Source: Roseococcus suduntuyensis
GTDB lineage: Bacteria; Pseudomonadota; Alphaproteobacteria; Acetobacterales; Acetobacteraceae
NCBI RefSeq assembly: GCF_014196305.1
Contig: NZ_JACIDJ010000001.1
Coordinates: 124,001 to 188,000 of the forward strand
Direction of reading: 5' to 3'
Length of the DNA: 64,000 nucleotides
Below, in pieces: positions 14,939 to 28,089 of this stretch. The first letter of the stretch is position 1, and each line of letters begins with the position of its first letter. Below the pieces are notes generated by a model, which saw only the letters and a program-made list of their open reading frames with translations, was not told the origin of the DNA and did no database searches. Position numbers and translations under genes: made by a program.

Positions 14939-14996
14939 CGCTGCAACGCCCCCGCTTGCGGCGCGTTACGTGTTCTTAACGCGGAAGGGGACATCC

Positions 14997-17417
14997 ATGG
15001 CCATGCAACCGAGCGACCGGTTCTTCGTGTCACGGGGGTGGCGCGTCGTTCACCTGTTGCTGCTGTTGGTGGTCGGGCTGCTGGGCCTCGCTCAGGCGGG
15101 GCTGGGCGGCTGGCTTGTCGCGGTCGGCGGCACGCCCATGCACCTCGTCTGCGGCCTGCTGCTGGTCATCGCGGCCTTCCTGGGCTGGCGCCGCCCTGGC
15201 GCGGCCGAGGGCCTGGCCATGCTGGTCGCCTTCGGCGTGGCGCTGGGCTGGGCCATCTTCGAAATCGCGGGCAAGGGCTGGATGCCGGCCTGGGGCTTCG
15301 ACCTGGCCGGGCGCGTGGGCATCGTCTTCGCCCTGCTGGCATTCACCTTCGCGGCCTCCATCCTGGCGCGGGTGCCGCGTTCGGGCCTCGCCGTGGGCGG
15401 GGCGGCGGGGGTCGGCATTCTCGCCAGCGCGGGCCTCGTCGCCTTCTTCTGGGAACGGCCGATGGAGCCGACGACCGGCGCCGCGCTCGCCTCGCAGCAG
15501 GTGCCGGCCGGGGGGAATGATGCCTCAGAATGGCGCGCCCATGCGGGTTCGCATCTCGGCCAGGGCTACTCGCCCGCCGCGCAGGTCACGCCCGCCAATG
15601 TCTCGCGCCTGCGCGAGGTCTGGCGCCACCGCACGCGCGACCTTCCACCCAATGAGCGCGTCTTCTACTCCGCGCAGAACACCCCCCTCGTCATCGGCGA
15701 TGGCCTCTACACCTGCAGCGCCAGCGGGCAGGTCTTCGCCCTCGACCCCGCCACGGGGCAGGAGCGCTGGCATTTCGACCCGCGAACCTCGCCCAGCGTC
15801 ATGGAAAGCCTGTTCAGCGTGGCCTGCCGCGCGGTGGGGCATCATGGCACGCCGGGCGCCCAGGCCTGTGGCGAGCGCATCTTCTCCACCACCGCCGATG
15901 GCCGCCTCTTCGCGCTGGATGCGCGCAACGGCACGCCCTGCGCCGAGTTCGGCGAGGGCGGCATCGTGGACCTGACGGAAGGCATGGGCATCCGCGAGCC
16001 CGGCTTCGCCTCCAGCACCTCCGGCCCCGCCGTGGTGGGGGATGCCGTCATCATCGGCCAGCAGGTCAGCGACAATCAGCGCCGCGACGCGCCCTCCGGC
16101 GTGGTCCGCGCCTATGACGCGCGCAGCGGCGCCCTGCTCTGGGCCTGGGACGCGCACCGGCCGGACGCGCAGGCGCCGCTCGCGCCGGGCGAGATCTTCC
16201 CCCGCGGCACGCCCAATGTCTGGACGCTGATCACGGCCGATGAACAGTTGGGCCTCGTCTTCCTCGGCACCGGCAATTCGGGCGCGGACCATTGGGGCGG
16301 CAACCGCACGCAAGAGGAGGATCGCTTCACCTCCGCCGTCGTGGCCGTGGATCTGGCCACCGGCGCCACCCGCTGGTCCTTCGCCACCGTGGACCATGAT
16401 TTGTGGGACTACGACATCGGCGCGCAGCCGGTGGTGATGGACATGGAGATCGAGGGCGTCATGCGCCGCGTGGTGGTGCAGGGCACCAAGACCGGCTCGC
16501 TCTTCGTGCTGGACGCCGCGACCGGCGAGGCGCTGCGGCCCATCGAGCGCCGCCCCGCGCCCCAGGGCCCGCTGCTGTCGAACGAGCGTATCTCGCCCGA
16601 CCAGCCACATTCGGTGTTCTACCCCAACTTCGCTGGCCACCCCGGCCCGATGCCCGAGGTGGTCGACGCGCGCCACACCTTCGGCGTGACGCCGCTGGAT
16701 GCCGCCTGGTGCCGCATCCAGTTCCACCAGATGCGCTATGAGGGCATCTTCACGCCGCCCACGACCGAGGGGCGCGGCATGCTGCTCTTCCCCGGCACCA
16801 TCGGCGGCATCAATTGGGGCGGGCTGGGCGTGGACCAGGCGCGTCGCATCGCCATCACCAACCACAGCCGCCTGCCCAACCAGGTGCTGATGATCCCGCA
16901 GGCCGAGGTGACGGATCGCGCCGTGGGCGATGGCGGCGCGCGTCCGGACCAGGCGACGGCGCCGCAGGCCGGCACCCCCTATGGCGTGCAGCGGCCCATG
17001 TGGCTCTCGCCGCTGGACGTGCCCTGCATCGCGCCGCCCTGGGGGTATCTCGCGGCCACGGACATGGCGACCGGCCAATTGCTGTGGTCGCAGCCGCTGG
17101 GCACGGGCTTCGACACCGGCCCGCTGCTGATGCCGACCTTCCTGCGCATCGCGACCGGCACGCCGAACATTGGCGGGCCGCTGGTGACGGCCTCGGGCCT
17201 CACCTTCATCGCCGCCGCGCAGGATGACTGGCTGCGCGCCTTCGAGACCGAGACGGGCCGCCTGCTGTGGTCCGGCCGCCTGCCCGCGGGCGGTCAGGCC
17301 AGCCCCATGACCTACATGCACCAGGGCCGGCAATACGTGGCCATCGGGGCTGCCGGGCACCAGCGGCTGGAAACCCGCACGGGCGACTACCTGGTGGTCT
17401 TCGCCCTGGACGAATGA
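14997..17417 (+). CDS. Membrane-bound PQQ-dependent dehydrogenase, glucose/quinate/shikimate family
   Basis: This 806-residue quinoprotein starts with four or five membrane helices (about residues 15-140), which in this family pass electrons to ubiquinone. An eight-bladed periplasmic PQQ propeller follows. Propeller repeats of the type AYDARSGALLWAWDA and AVDLATGATRWSFA are visible, as is the family segment ATVDHDLWDYDIGAQP with its conserved aspartate. The enzyme oxidises a sugar or cyclic alcohol in the periplasm, typical of acetic acid bacteria. The ATG at 14997 follows GGAAGGGG; a GTG at 14970 is less likely. The substrate within the family is not resolved, and no PQQ biosynthesis genes are in the window. 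Confidence 0.9.
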   Translation: MAMQPSDRFFVSRGWRVVHLLLLLVVGLLGLAQAGLGGWLVAVGGTPMHLVCGLLLVIAAFLGWRRPGAAEGLAMLVAFGVALGWAIFEIAGKGWMPAWGFDLAGRVGIVFALLAFTFAASILARVPRSGLAVGGAAGVGILASAGLVAFFWERPMEPTTGAALASQQVPAGGNDASEWRAHAGSHLGQGYSPAAQVTPANVSRLREVWRHRTRDLPPNERVFYSAQNTPLVIGDGLYTCSASGQVFALDPATGQERWHFDPRTSPSVMESLFSVACRAVGHHGTPGAQACGERIFSTTADGRLFALDARNGTPCAEFGEGGIVDLTEGMGIREPGFASSTSGPAVVGDAVIIGQQVSDNQRRDAPSGVVRAYDARSGALLWAWDAHRPDAQAPLAPGEIFPRGTPNVWTLITADEQLGLVFLGTGNSGADHWGGNRTQEEDRFTSAVVAVDLATGATRWSFATVDHDLWDYDIGAQPVVMDMEIEGVMRRVVVQGTKTGSLFVLDAATGEALRPIERRPAPQGPLLSNERISPDQPHSVFYPNFAGHPGPMPEVVDARHTFGVTPLDAAWCRIQFHQMRYEGIFTPPTTEGRGMLLFPGTIGGINWGGLGVDQARRIAITNHSRLPNQVLMIPQAEVTDRAVGDGGARPDQATAPQAGTPYGVQRPMWLSPLDVPCIAPPWGYLAATDMATGQLLWSQPLGTGFDTGPLLMPTFLRIATGTPNIGGPLVTASGLTFIAAAQDDWLRAFETETGRLLWSGRLPAGGQASPMTYMHQGRQYVAIGAAGHQRLETRTGDYLVVFALDE

Positions 17418-17517: not shown

Positions 17518-18492
17518 TCAGCCCTCCTGCTTCAGCAGCCAAACGGAGAACAGCCCGTCCGCATCACCCCAATGCCGCTCGGCCTGCCAGCCGGCGGCGG
17601 CGCACAGGGCGGTGAAGCCTTCCGGCCGGTACTTGTGACTGTTCTCGGTGTGGATGGTCTCGCCACCTGCGAAGCGCAGCCGCCGCCCCGCCATCCGCAC
17701 CAATTGCGGCCGCAGCGAGACGAGGTGCATCTCGATCCGCTCCTTCTCCGCGTTCCAGCGGGCCTCGTGGCGGAAGGCCGAGAGGTCGAAATCCGCCCCC
17801 AGCTCCCGGTTCAGCCGCGCCAGCAGGTTCATGTTGAAGGCGGCGGTGACGCCGGCCGCGTCGTCATAGGCGGCCTCCAGCACGGCCTGGTCCTTTACCC
17901 GGTCGGCGCCGATCAGCATCCTGGACCCTGGCCCCAGGATGCGGCCCGCCATGCGGAGAAACTCCCGCGCCGTATCAGGCGTGAAATTGCCGATGGTGGA
18001 GCCGGGGAAGAAGCCCAGCAGCGGGGTGCCGCGCGGCAGGCGCGGCAGCGGGAAGGGCCGGGTGAAATCCGCGACCACGGGCAGCACCGTCAGGCCCGGA
18101 TGCGCGGCGGCGACGCGCGCCGCGCCCTCTTCCAGCCATTCGGGCGCGATGTCCACCGGCACATAGGCGGCGGGGCGCTCCATCGCGTCGAACAGCAGGC
18201 CCACCTTCTCGGCGCTGCCCGAGCCGAACTCGACCACCGCCGCCCCCGGCCCCGCCAGCGCGGCGACCTCGGCCGCGCAGCCGCGCAGAATCGCCGTCTC
18301 GGTGCGCGTCGGGTAGTATTCGGGCAGGCGGATGATGTCCTCGAACAGCCGCGCACCCTCGGCGTCGTAGAGCCATTTGCAGGGGAGCGTCTTGCGTTCG
18401 GCGGTCAGGCCCGCCACGGCATCGGCCAGCAGGGCGGCGCGCTGGGTGCGGGCCTCGGCCTCCGGGTCATACCGGTTCTCCGCGCGGCTCAT
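17518..18492 (-). CDS. egtD: L-histidine N-alpha-methyltransferase EgtD
   Basis: This 324-residue SAM-dependent enzyme trimethylates histidine to hercynine, the first step of ergothioneine synthesis. The opening segment (LPCKWLYDAEGARLFEDIIRLPEYYPTRTE) and the SAM-binding VEFGSGSAEKV are diagnostic of EgtD, as is the FFPGSTIGNF segment. The gene starts within the last bases of egtB (TCAT overlap at 18489-18492), so the pair is translationally coupled. Ergothioneine is a thione antioxidant, which fits the oxyR-katG neighbourhood. No egtC or egtE homologue is visible nearby. Confidence 0.94.
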   Translation of the reverse strand: MSRAENRYDPEAEARTQRAALLADAVAGLTAERKTLPCKWLYDAEGARLFEDIIRLPEYYPTRTETAILRGCAAEVAALAGPGAAVVEFGSGSAEKVGLLFDAMERPAAYVPVDIAPEWLEEGAARVAAAHPGLTVLPVVADFTRPFPLPRLPRGTPLLGFFPGSTIGNFTPDTAREFLRMAGRILGPGSRMLIGADRVKDQAVLEAAYDDAAGVTAAFNMNLLARLNRELGADFDLSAFRHEARWNAEKERIEMHLVSLRPQLVRMAGRRLRFAGGETIHTENSHKYRPEGFTALCAAAGWQAERHWGDADGLFSVWLLKQEG

Positions 18493-19688
18493 GCCACGTC
18501 CTTCGCGAGGCGCAGCCCCGTGAACTGCCATCGCGCCCCGGGCGGGAAGAAGTTGCGGTAGGTCTGTCGCGAATGGCCCGGCGGCGTGGCGCGCGAGCCG
18601 CCGCGCAGCACCATCTGGCCGATCATGAACTTGCCATTGTATTCGCCCACGGCCCCCGCCCAGGGGCGAAAGCCGGGATAGGGGCGATAGGCGCTGCCGG
18701 TCCATTGCCAGACATGGCCCTCGGCGGCGAGGAAGCCCGGCAGGGCGCTGGACACCTCCCACTCCTGCTCGGTGGGCAGGCGGCAGCCGGCCCAGCGGGC
18801 ATAGGCGTCCGCCTCATACCAGCTGATGTGCCGCACGGGCGCGTCGGGATGGAGCGTGCCCAGCCCACCCGGCGTGAAGCCCAGCCAGGCGCCATCGCGC
18901 GGCTCCCAGTGTTCCGGCGCCTGCCAGCCCTCGGCCTCGCATTGCGCCCAGCCCTCGGACATCCAGAGGGAGGCGGTGCGGTAGCCGCCATCCGCCACGA
19001 ATTCCATCCATTCGGCGTTGGACACCGGGCGGTCCGCGATGGCGAAGGGTTCCAGGAAGACGCGGTGGCGCGGGGCCTCGTTGTCGAAGGCGAAGCCCTC
19101 GCCGTCATGGCCCACCGCCACCACGCCCGAGGGCCCGTCCAGCCAGCGCAGCATGGCGGGTGGCGGGGTGGCCTCGCGCCAGGCGGGGTCCATGGCGGGG
19201 TTGAGCGGGTTCTGCGCCATCAGGTGCAGCGCGTCGGTCAGCAGCAATTCCTGGTGCTGTTCCTCATGCCGCAAACCCAGTTCCACCAGCGTCGCGATCT
19301 CGGGCGACATCGGCCCGGCCAGCAGCGCCGTCATCGCCTGGTCCACATGCTGGCGATACGCGGTGACGCGGGCCGTGGCCGGGCGGGTCAGCATGCCGCG
19401 CCGCGGGCGCGCATGGCGGGGCCCGGCGGCCAGGTAGTAGGAGTTGAACAGGAAGGCGAAGTCCGGGTCGAAGCCCTGGTAGCCCTCCACATGCGGCTTC
19501 AGCACGAAGGTCTCGAAGAACCAGGTGGTGTGCGCGCGGTGCCACTTCGCCGGCGAAGCGTCGGGCATGGACTGCACGCACTGGTCCTCGGGCGAGAGCG
19601 GTTCGGCCAACCGCTCGGTGCCGGCGCGCAACGCCGCGTAGCGATCGGCCAGCGAGGCTTCCGCCTCCAGCCTGGCGTGCTGGTCCAT
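18489..19688 (-). CDS. egtB: Ergothioneine sulfoxide synthase EgtB
   Basis: This 399-residue non-haem iron enzyme joins a thiol donor to hercynine. The N-terminal DinB-like bundle supplies the iron-binding histidines within WHRAHTTWFFE and LRHEEQHQELLL. The C-terminal part is an FGE-sulfatase fold (NAEWMEFVADGGY, HISWYEADAYARWAGCRLPTEQEWE, GHVWQWTGSAY, RGGS). Start choice: the ATG at 19688 follows GGGGAGAGAGAT, a strong ribosome site, and is preferred over a longer frame from 19709. It is the first gene of the egtBD pair. Whether the sulfur donor is cysteine or gamma-glutamylcysteine cannot be told from sequence alone. Confidence 0.94.
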   Translation of the reverse strand: MDQHARLEAEASLADRYAALRAGTERLAEPLSPEDQCVQSMPDASPAKWHRAHTTWFFETFVLKPHVEGYQGFDPDFAFLFNSYYLAAGPRHARPRRGMLTRPATARVTAYRQHVDQAMTALLAGPMSPEIATLVELGLRHEEQHQELLLTDALHLMAQNPLNPAMDPAWREATPPPAMLRWLDGPSGVVAVGHDGEGFAFDNEAPRHRVFLEPFAIADRPVSNAEWMEFVADGGYRTASLWMSEGWAQCEAEGWQAPEHWEPRDGAWLGFTPGGLGTLHPDAPVRHISWYEADAYARWAGCRLPTEQEWEVSSALPGFLAAEGHVWQWTGSAYRPYPGFRPWAGAVGEYNGKFMIGQMVLRGGSRATPPGHSRQTYRNFFPPGARWQFTGLRLAKDVA

Positions 19689-19787
19689 ATCTCTCTCCCC
19701 TTCGCGCAAGGCCGATCGCCGGGCGCGGAGGGTCCGGTCCGAGCGGTGGCTTGAGGGGGTGAACGTGCAGAGGGGCGCAGGGTTGCG

Positions 19788-21674
19788 TCAGTCGGCACGG
19801 AAGCCCGCGGCGGTGTGGGAGCCGTCGCAGTAAGGCTTGTTGCGCGACTGCCCGCAGCGGCACAGCAGCGCCGCCTCCGCCTTCAGCAGCGTCCGCCCCG
19901 TGCCGCTGATGATCTCCATGGCCCCCGCGACGGAGAGCGGCCCGTCGCGCTGCGGCGCCACCGCCAGCACGCCGCCACGCACCGCCAGGGCGGGGCTGTC
20001 GCTGGTCTCGGGCTCGCCCGTCGCGCGGAAGCCGGCCGCGTGATGGGAGCCGTCGCAATAGGGCTTGTTCTGCGAGGCCCCGCAGCGGCACAGCGTGGCA
20101 CGATACCCGATCGCCGCGCCGCGCAACCGGATGTCGGCGCGCAGCGCGAGCGGCCCGTCCTCGCGCAGTTGCACCAGGTTCACGGGCGGCGGCGCCTCCT
20201 CCGGCCCGCCATCGTGGCGGCGATAGCGGATGGCGCCGGAGGGGCAGGCCTGCGCGACGGCGACGAGGCCCTCGGTGCTGGTGGCCTCGTCGGGCGCGAT
20301 CCAGGCGCCGACCACATTGGCCTTGAACACGGCGGGCTGCTGCAGCACGCAAAAGCGCGCATGGATGCAGCGCTTCGCCTCGAAGAGGATGGTGAGGTCC
20401 CGGCCCTCGGCGGTCTCGATCTCCGGTGCCTGGGCGGCTTGCGCCTCGCCCGCCAGACGCCGCGCGATGCCGGCCAGCACCTCGCCGGCCGCGAGATGCG
20501 GCAGCAGCGCGGCGGTGCGCGCGGCGACCTCGCGGAAACGTTCGGCCAGCAGCGCCTGGGCGGCCTCACCCGGCGGCAGCGGCGCCACGTCGCGCAGCAT
20601 GGCGAAGCTCATCCCCGCACGGCGCGCATCGCCACCCGCGCAGGCCGGCAAGGTGGTGAGGTGCTCGGCCACCGGGACCAGGGCGCGCATGGCGTCCACG
20701 GAAGCATCGAGGCAGGCGCGCTTGCGCGTGGCGTCCGTTTCCGCGAAGCCCTGAACCAGCGCGCGCAGCATGGCGGCATAGATGGCGTTGGCGGCGTCCA
20801 TCACCGGCGCCGTCTGCGGGTGGTCCACATAGGTCTTGCCCGCGGGGTCGGGCGGGCGGCGCATGACCGGGTTGGCCACGACCGCCCGCGCCGGGGCGAA
20901 GCCTGGCTCGGCGGCGAGGCGCGCGGCATAGGCGTCCCGCACCGCGATGAAGCGGCGGTAGTGCGAGGCCTCCACATCCTCGGGCGAACCCTCGCCCTGC
21001 TCCACGATGGTGTCGAGCGCGGCCAGCGCCGAAGCGAGCCCCGTCACCGCCTGCAGCCCCGGCAGCGCGGCCAGGTCCGGCCCCACCTGCAAGGCGGGGT
21101 CGCCGGGGAAGAGCGCCGCCTCGCCCATCCCGGCCGCGAGTTGCTCCAGACCCGCGCGGAGGCTGCGATAGAGGTGCCCCACCGTCAGGTAGTCCTGCGC
21201 GCTGGGCATCAGCCTTTCGCCGGGGGTTTCGCGGCGATAGACGGGGTTGGGGGCGGCGAAGCCCGCGCCATCCTCCAGCGCCACGCCCTCGGGCCGTTCG
21301 AGGTAGATGAAGTGGTCCAGCGTCGCGCGGTCGAAGGGGGTGAGGTTCACCACCACGCCCGAGGGATGATAGCCCGGCGCCACGGGGAAGTTGGGCCGCC
21401 CGAAGCGCGGCGCGCCGCCGATGGCGGAGGTGAGGTTGGCCACCAGCGCCAGATGCGTCATCTCGTCCACCGCGACATGGAGGATGGCGCGGCGCCACTC
21501 CGCCACCATGGCGGCATCGGCGGGCGCAAGCCCATCGGCCGCGGACTTCAGGCTGAAGGCCGCGTAGAGGTAGCAGCACATCAGGTTGTGCTCGATCTCG
21601 GCGGCCTCCGCGAGAAGGTAGAGCAATTCCTCGCGCGAGGTGATGCGGATGGCGGGTTCGGGCGCGTCCATCAT
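19788..21674 (-). CDS. Ferritin-like / divergent 4Fe-4S / double CDGSH iron-sulfur fusion protein
   Basis: This 628-residue protein combines at least three metal modules. The N-terminal half (about 1-310) resembles the ferritin-like domain of VioB-type iminophenyl-pyruvate dimer synthases, with E28-H29 (EIEHNLMCCYLY) and E71xxH74 (DEMTHL) as likely di-iron ligands. A divergent ferredoxin-like module has cysteines 436, 442 and 477 (RCIHARFC...ACPSGAIRY). Two complete CDGSH motifs end the protein: C529, C531, C540, H544 and C605, C607, C616, H620, each fitting CxCx2Sx3PxCDGSH. No signal peptide is seen. Its start overlaps the stop of the SMP-30-like gene, so it is the last gene of a three-gene operon. 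An iron-dependent redox or electron-transfer role is inferred; the reaction is unknown. Confidence 0.8.
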   Translation of the reverse strand: MMDAPEPAIRITSREELLYLLAEAAEIEHNLMCCYLYAAFSLKSAADGLAPADAAMVAEWRRAILHVAVDEMTHLALVANLTSAIGGAPRFGRPNFPVAPGYHPSGVVVNLTPFDRATLDHFIYLERPEGVALEDGAGFAAPNPVYRRETPGERLMPSAQDYLTVGHLYRSLRAGLEQLAAGMGEAALFPGDPALQVGPDLAALPGLQAVTGLASALAALDTIVEQGEGSPEDVEASHYRRFIAVRDAYAARLAAEPGFAPARAVVANPVMRRPPDPAGKTYVDHPQTAPVMDAANAIYAAMLRALVQGFAETDATRKRACLDASVDAMRALVPVAEHLTTLPACAGGDARRAGMSFAMLRDVAPLPPGEAAQALLAERFREVAARTAALLPHLAAGEVLAGIARRLAGEAQAAQAPEIETAEGRDLTILFEAKRCIHARFCVLQQPAVFKANVVGAWIAPDEATSTEGLVAVAQACPSGAIRYRRHDGGPEEAPPPVNLVQLREDGPLALRADIRLRGAAIGYRATLCRCGASQNKPYCDGSHHAAGFRATGEPETSDSPALAVRGGVLAVAPQRDGPLSVAGAMEIISGTGRTLLKAEAALLCRCGQSRNKPYCDGSHTAAGFRAD

Positions 21675-22570
21675 GCGATGGCGAGCCGCGCCAGCACCGC
21701 CTCGCCCCGCCCACCCGAGGTCAGGCCCCCCGTGCCCAGCGCATAGAGCGCGCGCCCATCGGGGGTGAGGGCCACGGCCGTGCTGCCCTCCACGCCCGGC
21801 GCCGGAATGGTGTCCGGCGTGGCGGCGCGGGGGGCGAGGCGCGCGATGCCGGTCGCGTGGGTGGCCGCGAAGATGGTGCCGTCGGCCGCCACCGCGAAAT
21901 CATCCACGCCGCCGGTCATCTGCGCGAGGGTCTCGGGCATGCCGCCCGCGAGCGGCACGCGCAGCAGCAGGCGCCGCGCGGAGTTGGAAACGAGCAGGTG
22001 CTCCCCCTGCCGCTTCAGGCCGTTCACGCCCGGGTTGCGCTGCCCCTCGACGGGCGTCAGCAGCGGGTGGTCCAGCCAGGGCGCGACGGTGCCGGCCGCG
22101 AGGTCCACCGCCCAGATGCGGCCCAGCGCGCTGTCGGCCAGCAGCATCCGCCCCGGTGCCAGCAGCACGCCACCGTTGGGGAAGATGGCCTCGGGCAGGG
22201 CGATGCGGCCTTGTACGCGGCCCTCGCCATCCAGCAGCAGCACGGAGCCCGTTCCGCGCGTCGCCGCCGGGCCTTGCAGGAAGGAGGCCCCATGCGCGGC
22301 CAGCGCCTGGCGCCCATCGCCCAATGCCGTGAGGCTGACAGGGTATGCCGGCACCTCCGCGAGCATCGCGGCGCCCGCGCCCTCGCTCCAGCGCTCGATG
22401 CGACGGGCGAGGTAGTTGGTGAAGAGCACGCGCCCCTCCGGCTCCACCACCAGGTTTTCCAGGAAGGTGCCGTTGGGGAAGCGCGCGAGGATCTCGGGCG
22501 CGGACTGGGCGCGGACGGGCGCGGCCAGGAGGGACAGGGGCGCGAAGGCGAGCAGGTGACGGCGTTGCAT
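21671..22570 (-). CDS. Exported SMP-30/gluconolactonase-like beta-propeller protein
   Basis: This 299-residue protein starts with a twin-arginine-like export signal (MQRRHLLAFAPLSLLAAPVRAQS, predicted cleavage after ALA/AQS). Propeller repeats follow, such as FLENLVVEPEGRVLFTNYLARRIERW, FPNGGVLLAPGRMLLADSALGRIWAVDL and DDFAVAADGTIFAATHATGIARL. SMP-30-type propellers hydrolyse lactones or merely bind ligands; catalytic metal residues were not verified. A GAGGG ribosome site overlaps the stop codon of the upstream MBL-fold gene, and the TGA overlaps the ATG of the next gene, so it is the middle gene of the operon. Confidence 0.8.
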   Translation of the reverse strand: MQRRHLLAFAPLSLLAAPVRAQSAPEILARFPNGTFLENLVVEPEGRVLFTNYLARRIERWSEGAGAAMLAEVPAYPVSLTALGDGRQALAAHGASFLQGPAATRGTGSVLLLDGEGRVQGRIALPEAIFPNGGVLLAPGRMLLADSALGRIWAVDLAAGTVAPWLDHPLLTPVEGQRNPGVNGLKRQGEHLLVSNSARRLLLRVPLAGGMPETLAQMTGGVDDFAVAADGTIFAATHATGIARLAPRAATPDTIPAPGVEGSTAVALTPDGRALYALGTGGLTSGGRGEAVLARLAIA

Positions 22571-22582
22571 GGCGTGTGACCC

Positions 22583-23518
22583 TCAGCGTGCCGCGATCTC
22601 GCGCGCAAGCGCGCCGGCGTTCAACTCGATCAGGTTGGGCATGGGGGCCACGCGCGGAAAGCCCTGGAAGCGCGCATCCATCGCCGCGCGGATGCGGCCC
22701 GTCGCCTCGGGCGAAAGCGGCGTGGCGGTGGCGAGTTCCGCACGCACCAGGCGCTCCATGGTGCGGAGGTAGTCCAGTTGCTCACGGATGAGCACACCGG
22801 CCGGGGCGGCCGCGCCATGGCCAGGCAGCGCCGTGCCCACGCCGTCATAGCGCGGCAGCGCGGCTTCGAGCTGCGCGATCCATTCGAGGGTGTGGCCGTC
22901 CAGCAGCCAGGGTGTGGCGCGGTTGCCGGCCAGGTCGGCCGTCACCAGCAGGTCATTGGCTTCGGAATACAGCAGCGTCATGCCGCTCGCCTCGCCGCGG
23001 CCCAGCTGGTCCACGCGCCATTCGGCGCCGGCGAGCGTGATGCGTTCATCCGGGCGCAGCACGCGCGTCGGCACGGGCAGGGTGTCGGGCACGCGGCCGG
23101 GGAAGAAGCCCTGCATCATCCCGATCAGCTCGCGGCCGCTGCGGGCCGCGTAGTCGCGCGTGACCTCGCTGGCGAGGATGGGCGCATCGGGAAAGGCGCG
23201 ATGGACCACGTCGAGGCCCGTCACATGGTCCGCGTGTTCGTGCGAGAGAAAGATGGCCTCCACCGGCAGGCCGGTGCCGCGGGCATGGGCGACCACCTGC
23301 GCGGCCTCCACCGAGGTGCGCTGGCAATCCACGATGACGACGGAGCGCGGGCCGATCAGCAGGAAGGAGTTCACGGACCCCTGGCCCGGCCGGTCGTATT
23401 TCGCGACCTCCAGCCCCGCGCCGGGCGTATAGGCCCGCACAGGGGCAAAGGCGGCCGGAACGATGGCGAGGACGGAGAGCGCGCCGGCGGCGTGGCCGAG
23501 GCTGCGGCGGGTGACCAT
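22583..23518 (-). CDS. Exported metallo-beta-lactamase-fold hydrolase
   Basis: This 311-residue protein has an export signal with a twin arginine (MVTRRSLGHAAGALSVLAIVPAAFAPVRA). The MBL-fold zinc motif is SHEHADH (H93, H95, D97, H98), with later aspartate and histidine ligands in LLVTADLAGN and ALPGHGAA. The ATG at 23518 follows AAGGA at good spacing and keeps the operator-like sites at 23540-23576 outside the coding region. A longer frame from 23575 would place them inside it. It is the first gene of a three-gene operon with the SMP-30-like and CDGSH fusion genes, all reading left. The substrate is unknown. Confidence 0.83.
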   Translation of the reverse strand: MVTRRSLGHAAGALSVLAIVPAAFAPVRAYTPGAGLEVAKYDRPGQGSVNSFLLIGPRSVVIVDCQRTSVEAAQVVAHARGTGLPVEAIFLSHEHADHVTGLDVVHRAFPDAPILASEVTRDYAARSGRELIGMMQGFFPGRVPDTLPVPTRVLRPDERITLAGAEWRVDQLGRGEASGMTLLYSEANDLLVTADLAGNRATPWLLDGHTLEWIAQLEAALPRYDGVGTALPGHGAAAPAGVLIREQLDYLRTMERLVRAELATATPLSPEATGRIRAAMDARFQGFPRVAPMPNLIELNAGALAREIAAR

Positions 23519-23539
23519 GGGGTGGCATCCTTGCGTGAC

Positions 23540-23661
23540 ATGGACAGTGTCAACTTCGTGAGTTGTCGGCGTCAACTGAAATGCGGGGCGTCATCGGATT
23601 GTCACATCGAATTGTGTTGACGCCGTCAACTTCGGTGCGCGATGAAGTTGACGATGTCAAC
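23540..23661. promoter_or_regulatory. Four GTTGAC-N3-GTCAAC-type operator sites in a divergent promoter
   Basis: Two perfect 15-base palindromes, GTTGACGCCGTCAAC (23616-23630) and GTTGACGATGTCAAC (23647-23661), lie near the DUF2141 gene. A one-mismatch copy, GTTGTCGGCGTCAAC (23562-23576), and a weaker one on the other strand (GTTGACACTGTCCAT, 23540-23554) lie near the MBL-fold gene. The cluster fills the space between the two divergent operons. The TetR protein at 24944-25591 is the obvious candidate binder, by position only. Confidence 0.75.
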
Positions 23662-23677
23662 ACGAGAGGCCCCCGCC

Positions 23678-24094
23678 ATGCGTCCCCTGCCCTTCCTGCT
23701 CTTCCTCCTCACGACACCCGCCGCCGCGGCGGGGCTCGACGTCACGGTCACCGGCGCGCGTGGCGCCACGGGCGAGGTGGGCTGCGCCCTCTACGCCACG
23801 GAGGCGGGCTTCCCCACCGATGCCGCGCCCGCCACGCAACTCTGGCAGCCCGCGCGCCCGGAAGGTGTCATCTGCCGCTTCGACGGGCTGCGCCCCGGGC
23901 GCTACGCGGTGGCGGTCTCGCACGACCTGAACGGCAACCGCCGCACCGACACGAACCTCTTCGGCATCCCGACCGAGGATTGGGGCGTGTCCAACAACAT
24001 CCGCCCCAGCTTGCGCGCGCCGCGCTTCAGCGAAGCGGCGGTGGAGGTGCCCGAAGGCCCCGCCACGCGCATCGAGATCAGGCTCGGCCGATGA
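23678..24094 (+). CDS. Secreted DUF2141 domain protein
   Basis: This 138-residue protein has a short Sec signal (MRPLPFLLFLLTTPAAAAG) and the DUF2141 beta-sandwich: GEVGCALYATEAGFP, CRFDGLRPGRYAVAVSHDLNGNRRTDTNLFGIPTEDWGVSNN. The aspartate/asparagine-rich loop of this family resembles a calcium-binding site. The function is unknown; members often sit beside short-chain dehydrogenases or carotenoid genes. The ATG at 23678 has GAGAGG eight bases upstream. An earlier ATG at 23642 would put the operator at 23647-23661 inside the gene and is less likely. Its stop overlaps the SDR start by four bases. Confidence 0.85.
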   Translation: MRPLPFLLFLLTTPAAAAGLDVTVTGARGATGEVGCALYATEAGFPTDAAPATQLWQPARPEGVICRFDGLRPGRYAVAVSHDLNGNRRTDTNLFGIPTEDWGVSNNIRPSLRAPRFSEAAVEVPEGPATRIEIRLGR

Positions 24095-24879
24095 GCGCGC
24101 GCCTCGATCGTTACGGACCCTGGGCGCTGGTCACCGGTGCCTCCGACGGCATCGGCCAGGCCACGACGCAGCGCCTGGCCGCACAGGGCTTTTCGTTGCT
24201 GCTCGTGGCACGGCGGGCGCATCGGCTGGAGATGCTCGCCGCCGAATTGCGCGCGGCGCATGGTGTCGCGGTGCGATGCCTGGCGCTGGACCTCGGCACC
24301 GAGGCCGGCCTCGCCACGCTGCGCCATGAGAGTGCCGCGCATGACGTGGGCCTGCTGGTGGCGGCGGCGGGCTTCGGCACCTCGGGCCCCTTCCTCGCCG
24401 CGCCGCTCGACGAGGAACTCGCCATGCTCGACGTGAACTGCCGTGCCGTGCTGGCACTCGCGCATGAATTCGGCAACCGCTTCGCCGCGCGCGGGCGGGG
24501 CGGCATCGTGCTGTTCAGTTCGCTGGTGGCCTTCCAGGGCGTGCCGCACGCCGCCGGCTATGCCGCCACCAAGGCCTTCGTGCAGTCGCTGGCCGAGGGC
24601 ATCGCGCCCGAACTCCGCGGGCGCGGCGTGGATGTGCTGGCCGTGGCCCCCGGCCCCGTCCGCAGCGGCTTCGCGGCCCGCGCCGGCATGCGGATGGGTG
24701 CCACCGAGAGCCCGGCGACGGTGGCCGATGGCCTGGTCGCGGCACTGGGCCGCCGCGCGCTGGTGCGGCCGGGAATGCTGTCCAAGGCGTTGGAATTCGC
24801 GCTCACCCCGCTGCCGCGCCGTGGCCGTGTCTGGATGATGGGCCGCGTCATGTCCGGGATGGCGCGCCATGTGGCTTGA
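24091..24879 (+). CDS. Short-chain dehydrogenase/reductase
   Basis: This 262-residue classical SDR has a cofactor loop TGASDGIG at 15-22, serines near 143-144 and the YxxxK pair Y157 and K161 (HAAGYAATKAF). R41-R42 after the second strand suggests NADPH preference. The usual NAG motif is AAG here. The C-terminal part (MLSKALEFALTPLPRRGRVWMMGRVMSGMARHVA) resembles membrane-associated SDRs of the YqjQ/DltE-like group. It is co-translated with the DUF2141 gene through an ATGA overlap. The substrate is unknown. Confidence 0.87.
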   Translation: MSARLDRYGPWALVTGASDGIGQATTQRLAAQGFSLLLVARRAHRLEMLAAELRAAHGVAVRCLALDLGTEAGLATLRHESAAHDVGLLVAAAGFGTSGPFLAAPLDEELAMLDVNCRAVLALAHEFGNRFAARGRGGIVLFSSLVAFQGVPHAAGYAATKAFVQSLAEGIAPELRGRGVDVLAVAPGPVRSGFAARAGMRMGATESPATVADGLVAALGRRALVRPGMLSKALEFALTPLPRRGRVWMMGRVMSGMARHVA

Positions 24880-24904
24880 GCCCCGCTTGGTGCCGGGCGG
24901 CAAT

Positions 24905-24921
24905 TTGGCTAGTCTCGCCAA
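24905..24921. promoter_or_regulatory. Inverted repeat upstream of the TetR gene
   Basis: TTGGC at 24905-24909 and GCCAA at 24917-24921 form a perfect 5-base inverted repeat with a 7-base spacer, 22 bases before the preferred TetR start codon. Size and position fit an autoregulatory operator, but the half-site is short and differs from GTTGAC. Confidence 0.4.
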
Positions 24922-24943
24922 GCCCTTCGCCACAAGGCCCCGC

Positions 24944-25591
24944 ATGCCACGCAAGCCCGAACCCCCGCGCGACCTGCGCGAGGCCTGCATCGCCGAGGCC
25001 CTCGCGGTCATCGAGCGCGACGGCGTCGAGGCGTTGAGCCTGCGCGAAGTCGCGCGTCGCCTCGGCGTCTCGCACCAGGCGCCCTACAAGCACTACCCCA
25101 GCCGGGATCATCTGCTGGCCGAGGTGGTGCGCCGCGCCTTCGCCGCCTTCGCGGCCCATCTGGACGCACGCCCGCGCGCGAAGGACCCCTTCGAGGACCT
25201 GCACGCCATGGGCCGCGCCTATCTCGACTACGCGCTGCGCCACCCGCTGCAATACCGGCTGATGTTCGGCACGCCCCTGCCGGATGCGGAGGCACATCCC
25301 GACATGATGTTGGATGGCCGCCACGCCTTCGGCCTGCTGAAATCCGCCATCGCGGCGCTGGACGAGGCGCGGCCCGAACCCGCCCGTCCCGCCGATCCGC
25401 GCCAGGACGCGCTGCTGGTCTGGTCCATGCTGCATGGCCTGGCCAGCATCGGCCAATGCAGCGCGCTGCAAACCCTGCGCCTGCCACGCGCGGTCATGAC
25501 CGCCATGCACGCGCACGCCATGGCGCGCATGGAGGAAGGGCTGCGCGCCGCCCTGCCCGCGGCCCGCGCCACCCGCGGCCGACGAACATGA
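24944..25591 (+). CDS. TetR/AcrR-family transcriptional regulator
   Basis: This 215-residue protein has an N-terminal TetR helix-turn-helix (IAEALAVIERDGVEALSLREVARRLGVSHQAPYKHYPSRDHLLAEVVRRAF). Its ligand domain includes FEDLHAMGRAYLDYALRHPLQYRLMFG, similar to the TetR_C_33/WHG group. The ATG at 24944 gives a standard N terminus; upstream in-frame extension to 24869 would run through an operator-like repeat. Its last bases overlap the start of the membrane-protein gene. Its position suggests it controls this divergon, plausibly through the GTTGAC sites at 23540-23661. Confidence 0.88.
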   Translation: MPRKPEPPRDLREACIAEALAVIERDGVEALSLREVARRLGVSHQAPYKHYPSRDHLLAEVVRRAFAAFAAHLDARPRAKDPFEDLHAMGRAYLDYALRHPLQYRLMFGTPLPDAEAHPDMMLDGRHAFGLLKSAIAALDEARPEPARPADPRQDALLVWSMLHGLASIGQCSALQTLRLPRAVMTAMHAHAMARMEEGLRAALPAARATRGRRT

Positions 25592-26379
25592 TGGCGCGCG
25601 AGGCGGGCGCGGCGCTGCCGCTGGCCTGGCTCGCGGTCCTGGGTTTCCTGCTGGTGTTCCTGGTGACGGCAGGGCTGGACCGCATGGATTCGCGGCAATG
25701 GGGCGGCGTGGGCGTCTGGGTGAAGCCCATGAAGTTCCAGCTCTCGGTGGCGCTGCACCTCGCCACGCTCGCCTGGGTGGCGGGGCGGCTGGGCGAGGAG
25801 TGGCGCATGGGCTTTGTGGTGCAGTCGGTGTTGCTGCTGGCCGTGCTGATGGCGGTGCTGGAGGTGGCCTACATCACCTTCCAGGGCGCCATGCAGCAGG
25901 GCTCGCACTTCAACCTGAGCACGCGCTTCCACGCCACCATGTATTCGCTGATGGCGGCGGGGGCGGTGGTGCTGACCTCGGCCGCGGCGGTGCTGGGTGT
26001 GGTGGCGCTGCTGGACGGGCAGGCGCGGCTCGGCCCCGGGCTTCGCCACGCCGTGGCGCTGGGGCTGGTCGGCGGCACGGTGCTGACGCTCATCATCGCC
26101 TTCGACATGGGCGGGCGCATGGCGCACCATGTCGGCACGCCCGCGAACCCTGAGGCGCGCTGGCCCCTGGTCGGCTGGTCGCGCGAGGTGGGGGATCTGC
26201 GCGCGCCCCACTTCTTCGCCACCCACATGATGCAGGCGGTGCCGGCGCTGGGCTGGGCGGCGGACCGCGCGCTGCCGCCGGCCTGGGCGGTGGCGGCGGC
26301 CTGGGGGGCGGCCCTGCTCTGGGCCGCGATGACGTGGTTCTTCTATCGTGGCGCGCTGGCGGGGCGGCCCTTTCCATAG
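25588..26379 (+). CDS. Polytopic membrane protein of unknown function
   Basis: This 263-residue protein has about seven predicted membrane helices (near 8-28, 50-68, 74-98, 117-143, 152-174, 213-230 and 234-255). Conserved-looking polar segments lie in between, such as VKPMKFQLSVALHLATLAW, RFHATMYSL and HFFATHMMQAVPALGW. Several histidines sit at helix ends, which could bind haem or metal, but no family was recognised. It starts inside the TetR stop codon (ATGATGG at 25588), so it is the last gene of the DUF2141-SDR-TetR operon. A repeat array begins 32 bases after its stop. Confidence 0.6.
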   Translation: MMAREAGAALPLAWLAVLGFLLVFLVTAGLDRMDSRQWGGVGVWVKPMKFQLSVALHLATLAWVAGRLGEEWRMGFVVQSVLLLAVLMAVLEVAYITFQGAMQQGSHFNLSTRFHATMYSLMAAGAVVLTSAAAVLGVVALLDGQARLGPGLRHAVALGLVGGTVLTLIIAFDMGGRMAHHVGTPANPEARWPLVGWSREVGDLRAPHFFATHMMQAVPALGWAADRALPPAWAVAAAWGAALLWAAMTWFFYRGALAGRPFP

Positions 26380-26411
26380 CCCGCCGGGCGGGACGATCGG
26401 GCGCCCCCCTC

Positions 26412-26617
26412 TCAGCGGCTAATTCATGCCCTTGGCGTTCCGCCAAGGGCGATCAGGCCCCTCTCAGCGGCTGATTCACGCCCTTGGCGTTCCGCCAAGG
26501 GCGATCAGGCGCCTCTCTGCGGCTGATTCACGCCCTTGGCATTCCGCCAAGGGCGATCAGGCGCCTCTCTGCGACTGATTCACGCCCTTGGCGTTCCGCC
26601 AAGGGCGATCAGGCGCT
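26412..26617. repeat. Four-copy 52-bp tandem array of a perfect palindrome
   Basis: Units begin at 26412, 26464, 26516 and 26568 with exact 52-base spacing and few differences between copies. Each contains GCCCTTGGCG-TTC-CGCCAAGGGC (copy three has one change), framed by TGATTCA on the left and GATCA on the right. The frame matches the arms of the dispersed CTGAT...ATCAG family. The array sits between converging genes and touches the stop codon of the DUF1289 gene. There is no spacer diversity, so it is not a CRISPR array. Confidence 0.93.
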
Positions 26618-26989: not shown

Positions 26990-27478
26990 ATGACCCCACC
27001 GCTTCGCCGAACCCTGCTTATTGCCGGGGGCGCGGCCCTGGCCGCCCCCGCCCTGGCGCGCCCGGCCCTCGCCCAGGGCCTGGCGCCCACCCCCACCATG
27101 CGCGGCAGCGCCAACAATTATCGGCCCGGCGCGGCCATCGTGCCGCGCATCGGCCAGGGCGGCTTCTGGCTGACCGGCACGGTGCGCCGCGCGGGCGATG
27201 GCGCGCCCATCCCGCGCGCGCGCATCCAGATCTGGGCGCACACCACCGAGGGGCATGAACGCGACCCGCACAGCCATGGCGCCACGCTGACCGATGCCGA
27301 GGGCGTGTTCCGCATGGAGATGCCGCAGATCGTCCCCGCTTTCGGACAGGCACACGGCCACCTCGCCTATGACGCCGCGCATGACGAGAATGGCTACGAG
27401 ACCGTCTTCCTCCGCCCGCTGCTCCGCAGTGCCCGCGACACCAGCCTGACCGCGCATTTCGTCCTGCGCCGGGCGTGA
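26990..27478 (+). CDS. Exported intradiol-dioxygenase-like beta-sandwich protein
   Basis: This 162-residue protein has an export signal with a twin arginine (PLRRTLLIAGGAALAAPALARPALAQ). Its fold resembles the intradiol ring-cleavage dioxygenase beta-sandwich: FWLTGTVRRAGDGAPIPRARIQIWAHT, DPHSHGATLTDAEGVFRMEMPQ and AHGHLAYD. Several histidines and tyrosines are present, but it was not possible to match all four iron ligands, so catalysis is uncertain. GGAGAGGAGATCCACC precedes the ATG at 26990. The stop overlaps the GTG start of the membrane ferric-reductase-like gene, implying a two-gene unit acting in the periplasm and membrane. Confidence 0.7.
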   Translation: MTPPLRRTLLIAGGAALAAPALARPALAQGLAPTPTMRGSANNYRPGAAIVPRIGQGGFWLTGTVRRAGDGAPIPRARIQIWAHTTEGHERDPHSHGATLTDAEGVFRMEMPQIVPAFGQAHGHLAYDAAHDENGYETVFLRPLLRSARDTSLTAHFVLRRA

Positions 27479-28089
27479 CGCGCGGGCGCGCGGCGCTCGC
27501 CTGGGTCGGACTGGCCCTCGCCCTGGCAGTCCCGCTGGTGGTCGCGGCGAGAAGCCCGCTGCTGGCCTGGCGCGAGCCCATCTACATCGCGGCCGGCATG
27601 GCCGGCGTGGTGGGGCTGGGGCTGCTGCTGGTGCAGCCGCTTCTGGCCGGCGGCCATTTGCCGGGGCTGCGCCTGATGGCCTCGCGGCGGCTGCACGCCT
27701 GGGTGGGCGCGGGGCTCGTCCTGGCCGTGGTGCTGCATGTGGCGGGGCTGTGGCTGACCAGCCCACCCGATGTGGTGGATGCGCTGCTGTTCCGTTCGCC
27801 CACGCCCTTCTCGGCCTGGGGCGTGGTGGCCATGTGGGCGGTCTTCGGCGCGGCGCTGCTCGCGCTGCTGCGCCGGCGGCTGCGACCGCTGCTCTGGCGG
27901 CTGTGCCATGTCACACTGGCCGCCATCATCGTGCTGGGCACCGTGGTCCATGCCTGGCTGGTGGATGGCACCATGGGCACCCTGTCCAAGGCCATGCTCT
28001 GCCTGCTGGTGCTGGCGGCGGCGGCCAGGGCGGTGCACGAGGCGCGGCTGCCCGCCGCGCTGCGCCGTCTTGGCCGGCGGGGCGGATGA
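27475..28089 (+). CDS. Ferric-reductase-like transmembrane protein
   Basis: This 204-residue protein has about six predicted helices. Histidines lie inside them at RRLHAWVGAGLVLAVVLHVAGLWL, LWRLCHVTLAAIIVLGTVVHAWL, the b-type haem pattern of the ferric reductase-like transmembrane domain (YedZ/NOX type). No flavin or NAD domain is attached, so it needs a partner for electrons. It begins with GTG inside the stop of the preceding exported dioxygenase-like gene. A role in passing electrons across the membrane to that periplasmic partner is inferred only. Confidence 0.75.
   Translation: MTRGRAALAWVGLALALAVPLVVAARSPLLAWREPIYIAAGMAGVVGLGLLLVQPLLAGGHLPGLRLMASRRLHAWVGAGLVLAVVLHVAGLWLTSPPDVVDALLFRSPTPFSAWGVVAMWAVFGAALLALLRRRLRPLLWRLCHVTLAAIIVLGTVVHAWLVDGTMGTLSKAMLCLLVLAAAARAVHEARLPAALRRLGRRGG

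Follow-up and report, generated by a model that had tools for sequence, protein, structure and literature searches.

Do the seven genes that face each other across a single gap in Roseococcus suduntuyensis form one pathway, or have separate pieces met there around a common regulator? The locus occupies positions 19,788 to 26,379 of the window, the whole stretch of 64,000 nucleotides that was analysed (assembly GCF_014196305.1, contig NZ_JACIDJ010000001.1, positions 124,001 to 188,000). Its left arm encodes a metallo-beta-lactamase-fold hydrolase (MBL), an SGL/SMP-30-like propeller (SMP) and a multi-iron fusion protein (FER), and its right arm a DUF2141 protein, a short-chain dehydrogenase (SDR), a TetR regulator and a seven-helix membrane protein (TM7). 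A sequence-only reading had taken the block for one conserved pathway, a candidate undescribed redox system, and had named a genome search for the block as a unit as one of its tests. That search went largely against it: among the genomes searched, the complete set was found in the window genome only, and the two arms stand together only in this genome (G000) and its two closest relatives found (G003 and G004), their partners differing elsewhere. The distribution points to a recent joining of two separately travelling modules, not to one ancient pathway. We consider it likely, at a probability of about 0.6, that the locus is a TetR-controlled divergent operon pair built from two modules, of which the left, MBL-SMP-FER, would have been recruited.

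All seven reading frames were recovered with the order, strands and families that had been claimed. On the reverse strand lie MBL (22583..23518, 311 aa), SMP (21671..22570, 299 aa) and FER (19788..21674, 628 aa; a fusion of PF12902, PF06902 and two PF09360 domains), and on the forward strand, diverging across a 160 bp gap, the DUF2141 protein (23678..24094, 138 aa, with a signal peptide), SDR (24091..24879, 262 aa), TetR (24944..25591, 215 aa, TetR_N and TetR_C_33) and TM7 (25588..26379). The tight junctions also held: ATGA overlaps join SMP to FER, DUF2141 to SDR and TetR to TM7, and the remaining spacings are 12 nt (MBL-SMP) and 64 nt (SDR-TetR). A second in-frame ATG, at 23642, precedes the DUF2141 start and lies before the operator O4 described below; the ATG used here aligns, with its flanks, in G003 and G004. 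MBL fits PF00753 (53.3 against 22.7 bits), carries the HxHxDH motif as HEHADH and was rejected as a quinoprotein relay metallohydrolase (TIGR04558; 62.2 against a cut-off of 300 bits); SMP matches 2p4o at E 1.1e-32. The export signals proposed for these two proteins are present, since MBL begins MVTRRSLG... and SMP MQRRHLL..., both twin-arginine signals by what we take to be the twin-arginine motif, and the N-termini inspected in their homologs carry such signals too. An export signal is not apparent in the FER sequence.

The right arm recurs elsewhere. In G019, of the same genus, DUF2141-SDR-TetR-TM7 is present at 66, 78, 81 and 68% identity with two operators, facing a gene for a major facilitator superfamily (MFS) transporter instead of MBL. 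G223, of another genus, has an operator followed by DUF2141-SDR-TetR at 51, 57 and 59%, facing a DUF1330 gene, and shows no TM7 in the stretch of 7 kb that was covered. In G250 and G200 the operators stand at a gene for an ABM-domain protein, followed by TetR (57–60%). Strict search criteria for TetR gave matches in 6 of 397 family genomes; G019 was evidently not in that draw and was located through TM7 and DUF2141. TM7 follows the right module in four same-genus genomes. Because it is the more widely found of the two, the right module is probably the older.

What connects these loci is a palindrome, GTTGACnnnGTCAAC. Two exact copies, O3 (23616..23630) and O4 (23647..23661), lie 31 bp apart on the DUF2141 side of the gap, and two degenerate ones, O1 (23540..23554, two mismatches) and O2 (23562..23576, one mismatch), lie 22 bp apart on the MBL side, so that the earlier description of the gap as full of identical palindromes holds for only two of the four. 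Seven matches with at most two mismatches occur in the window, four of them inside the gap, against a shuffle mean of 0.74, and none of 100 shuffles reaches seven; this enrichment is not due to chance. In whole-genome scans, exact copies fall only at this control region: G000, G003 and G004 have two each, and G019, which is 88% complete, has a single one. Allowing one mismatch, the totals in G000, G003, G004 and G019 are 8, 10, 11 and 2, compared with 3, 1, 2 and 3 for a reversed control pattern, and three of the eight sites of G000 sit in the divergon gap. The palindrome lies near this TetR (at least 57% identity) in 7/7 genomes examined. These hold 19 sites in all, a count that omits two 2-mismatch matches outside gaps in L156 and L187, and most positions in both palindrome arms agree in 15–19 of the 19. 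Among the six genomes with at least two sites, the spacing of the pair is 31 bp in five (G000, G003, G004, G019 and G200) and 34 bp in G250; G223 has a single site. With its TetR_N domain (38.0 against 24 bits) and a palindrome near the start of its own operon, the regulator is placed as a TetR with a putative cognate operator.

Does this TetR also govern the left arm? The arms could be mere neighbours, with TetR governing the right operon only and MBL-SMP-FER running from its own promoter under unrelated regulation. The recurring 31-bp pair indeed lies on the DUF2141 side in all three divergon genomes, the MBL-side sites are degenerate, and in other genomes MBL relatives lie opposite LysR genes. 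Specifically, in G435 and G446 (Falsiroseomonas) a LysR gene faces SDR-MBL-SMP, with MBL at 85–86% and SMP at 77–78% identity, and in G423, G250 and G200 a LysR-like gene (35–38%) faces MBL-SDR. However, 3/3 divergon genomes retain both additional sites close to the MBL start, at the same 22-bp spacing, and this pair was seen only there; the left arm, moreover, has no regulator gene of its own here. We therefore hold simple adjacency to be rather unlikely. The earlier claim of shared control survives as a common region with a probable common regulator, the palindrome accompanying TetR in all seven genomes and the MBL-side sites in three.

The left genes likewise travel with other company. MBL relatives at E 1e-40 or better were found in 8 of 394 family genomes. 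In F. tokyonensis (L023) the gene order is aldehyde dehydrogenase (ALDH), F420/NADP oxidoreductase, SDR, SnoaL, SMP (70%) and FER (78%); SMP adjoins FER there, an MBL relative is more than 6 kb distant, and the SDR is 66% identical to that of G435. In these Falsiroseomonas neighbourhoods MBL, SMP and FER do have one partner in common, an SDR different from that of the window's right arm, though under other regulators. In G072 and G015, SMP relatives adjoin neither MBL nor FER. At a further site (L199:4947-6542; G446, F. tokyonensis), a fasciclin-domain gene directly precedes an MBL homolog (63%).

Could all seven genes nevertheless constitute one conserved, undescribed redox pathway? The tight translational coupling within each arm, the common operator region and the partial retention of the arrangement in three genomes speak for it. 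Yet those three are close relatives, and even among them the set erodes. MBL and FER are present in G003 with SMP missing. G004 keeps MBL and the entire right arm, lacks SMP and has FER reduced to remnants; by eye, the first codons of SMP run there into pieces of the FER end, between MBL and egtB (L156:4640-4900), and this remnant amounts to a naturally occurring loss of most left-arm sequence. SMP and FER, lost in these relatives, appear to be dispensable, and the cassette appears to be decaying already. A full FER was found in 2 of 21 same-genus genomes, the window genome included. In the genome collection 212 stretches encode a FER relative; the best 80 were taken and gave 78 distinct loci, of which 53 have flanks of at least 5 kb on both sides and 25 a flank shorter than 5 kb. 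At a threshold of 40% identity, none of the 77 non-Roseococcus loci has DUF2141, SDR, TetR or TM7, and the Roseococcus locus (L027) is the only one of the 78 with MBL plus all four. MBL and SMP are both missing near FER in 76/78 at this threshold. Eleven non-Roseococcus loci, among them six from Dyella, show weak matches to SDR (27–32%), and two show weak matches to TetR (29%); none of these was counted as an ortholog. A conserved FER partner was also sought: of 149 neighbouring open reading frames (ORFs), 80 were aligned and scanned, a mechanical choice in which some may be spurious, and no neighbour family dominates, SDR and histidine kinase being commonest at 6/80 each. Each arm is, moreover, found elsewhere with other partners, and a single seven-gene pathway is quite improbable.

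It is very improbable that the left arm and egtB-egtD form an iron/oxidative-stress island combining ergothioneine with iron-sulfur handling. In favour of such an island, EgtB and EgtD (17521..19709, reverse strand) come next after FER, or after what is left of it, in all three divergon genomes and are read from the same strand, and a search at E 1e-60 detected no EgtB in the five other genomes of the genus in which it was sought. Against it, the pair persists where FER has decayed, either gene lies near only the Roseococcus one of the 78 FER loci, and in G446 and G435 EgtB (68–69% identical to that of the window) is on contigs other than that of MBL and, in G446, that of FER. We list the two genes as a possible extension of the left arm and claim no membership for them. 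The identity of EgtB in G446 and G435 is lower than that of MBL, at most a hint that the left cassette may have been transferred between genera. Just beyond egtD lies a gene (14970-17417) for a pyrroloquinoline quinone-dependent glucose/alcohol dehydrogenase (PF01011).

Some observations weigh against a TetR-controlled pair of joined modules. Because the palindromes on the MBL side are degenerate, the case for TetR acting on the left arm is weaker than the case for autoregulation. A simple scan of the gap returned no sigma-70-like promoter. In G019 the reversed control pattern matches at least as often as the palindrome itself (three against two). Five one-mismatch sites lie elsewhere in G000, some of them identical in G003 and G004, so the TetR regulon may exceed the divergon; G000:C1:841674, C1:932426 and C5:34732 are examples of such distant sites and possible further members. 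The family of SMP is marginal in Pfam (PF08450, 27.9 bits against a cut-off of 26.3). Finally, that the right arm is probably older and the left possibly transferred is read from distribution, not from trees.

FER is the most elaborate protein of the locus. PF12902 scores 145.6 bits against a gathering score of 22.3, and PF06902 (Fer4_19) 49.4 against 24 bits. In an alignment of 60 rows (59 of the 78 homologs, which passed a full-length filter, plus the window protein), E28, H29, E71, H74 and E228 of the ferritin-like part are identical in 60/60 and H238 in 59/60; E28/H29, E71/H74, E228 and H238 are thus candidate metal ligands of a dinuclear site. Equally invariant are C436, C442 and C477 of the Fer4_19 part (60/60). 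We presume these three cysteines to be the ligands of that family. The CDGSH ligand sets C529 C531 C540 H544 and C605 C607 C616 H620 are present in 60/60 rows, which makes FER a class II CDGSH protein, with two domains of three cysteines and one histidine each; the full-length filter favours invariance of all these residues. The AlphaFold2 model (predicted local distance difference test, pLDDT, 89.2; predicted template-modelling score 0.83) matches 3hl1 over residues 10–358 with Z 24.1 (263 aligned, 3.0 Å), the next best hit being at 13.5. Identity with VioB (TIGR04492) was rejected, at 61.9 bits against an NCBIfam equivalog cut-off of 1250. The genome encodes a second PF12902-type protein (L189:4966-5691; G000:C6:138965-139693), 42% identical over FER residues 10–243; the match has no Fe-S part, and the gene directly follows an ORF resembling a GMC-type oxidoreductase.

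TM7 closes the right arm and belongs to a family of its own. Its model has seven long predicted helices (mean pLDDT 89.6); NCBIfam gave no match, and Pfam no credible one (10 members, E<=10; best 0.011, in one member). The family is uncommon: at E 1e-10 it was matched in 14 of 147 relatives, and at E 1e-5 in 10 of 398 genomes of the phylum. Of the 21 genomes matched, 17 loci were counted, leaving out the three divergon genomes and one truncated copy. A TetR relative stands within about 750 nt of TM7 in 14 of these 17 (exceptions L160, L161 and L240), and in 12 of the 14 an ORF of about 140–175 aa lies between them; ten of these 12 were scanned and all ten are ABA4-like (PF14108). Loci of note are L159, L162, L166, L188, L241, L242, L244-L246, L109, L111 and L113. 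The right arm of the window has no ABA4-like gene; the rest of the window genome was not searched for one. TM7 thus belongs to a new membrane family without a Pfam or NCBIfam match, one that recurs beside TetR and ABA4-like genes. Past its end, at 26408-26616, a 52-bp unit is repeated in four tandem copies (95% matches) and includes a CCCTTGGCG-TTC-CGCCAAGGG-type palindrome; farther on, at 26990-28089, a protein that looks exported and weakly matches CarboxypepD_reg is coupled to a ferric-reductase-like membrane protein.

Ten residues of TM7 are invariant in 18 rows (D33, R35, W43, K45, H106, D202, R204, H207, H212 and Q215). The whole model aligns with heme-copper oxidase subunit I (8iuf_C1) at Z 12.8 (233 aligned, 3.9 Å) and its first half with styrene oxide isomerase at Z 12.5, both values below the level of about 13 at which the tool warns for helical bundles. 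Foldseek had no match at E 0.001, a profile search of the PDB sequences had none at E 10, and PF00115 was not among the matches of ten members at E 10, where filters drop most matches above 0.1. The hhalign probabilities with heme-copper oxidases are 0.5% and 5.4%; the profile-profile score behind the latter is 28.6, against at most 24.3 for 20 block-shuffled profiles and 21.5 for a reversed one. The helix-2 histidine (residue 56), a possible counterpart of a copper ligand by the oxidase ligand positions that we take as reference, is present in only 8/18 rows. Sequence profiles give no support to kinship with heme-copper oxidases, which we keep as a lead only. For styrene oxide isomerase, the available part of its description gives no substantial DALI neighbour and names H58 as heme ligand (PMC11374702).

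How might such a locus work? The right module, TetR mostly with DUF2141-SDR, would act at palindromic operators usually paired about 31 bp apart. Most likely TetR represses its own operon and, through the extra MBL-side sites, the opposite one as well, until a small organic ligand would release it. MBL and SMP, judging by their signal peptides, would be exported by the twin-arginine route, and FER would stay in the cytoplasm. The SDR, ALDH, SnoaL, ABM-domain and MFS genes found with these modules suggest, as the most likely chemistry, that an electrophilic, carbonyl- or lactone-type compound is inducibly detoxified or catabolized: MBL and SMP may hydrolyse in the periplasm, SDR may reduce a carbonyl, and FER may oxidize or reduce at a diiron-type site that the Fe-S clusters fused to it would serve. 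It is conceivable, though doubtful, that FER is a self-sufficient diiron oxidase or oxygenase with its own Fe-S wire and, under the same repressor, TM7 a heme- or metal-binding protein with an oxidase-I- or styrene-oxide-isomerase-like core around H106, D202, R204, H207 and H212, whose usual partner elsewhere is ABA4-like.

As a clear case of module swapping at a single TetR operator, in which close relatives reveal the losses, the locus cautions that layout in one genome is a poor basis for reading a pathway. It offers a testable operator, the GTTGACnnnGTCAAC pairs 31 bp apart, and highlights two proteins that merit laboratory work: FER, a widespread four-module iron protein, and TM7, reproducibly beside TetR and ABA4-like genes. 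We found no published account of this gene set in the open-access literature; the domain combination of FER is already in print, and the TM7 family is new. DUF2141 is described, in the parts of the literature available, as of unknown function and as a neighbour of crtG in Sphingomonadales and in Qipengyuania (PMC5989583, PMC9241875).

Several known systems allow comparison. In the available part of one survey, bacterial CDGSH domains occur with Fer4_19 and with Ferritin-like domains, their function not given (PMC5859297); FER has like pairings, but its single four-module order does not appear in that part. It shares its ferritin-like fold with Caulobacter CC_0557 (PDB 3hl1), which is, unlike FER, a 317-residue chain without an Fe-S part, and the match names no function. 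The TetR/ABA4-like/TM7 loci resemble the right arm in that a TM7 homolog adjoins TetR; in the window arm, however, DUF2141-SDR replaces the ABA4-like gene, and the TetRs are distant. The Falsiroseomonas operons (G435 and G446) share the MBL-SMP order and high identity with the left arm but have LysR, not TetR, place SDR upstream and lack FER. Divergent autoregulated operons governed by TetR-family regulators are a known class, and the divergon is like them in having the regulator within one arm, palindromes between the arms and an apparently local regulon. It differs from that class in its gene content, in its two modules of different distribution, and in a recurring 31-bp double operator, to which one side adds a further pair 22 bp apart.

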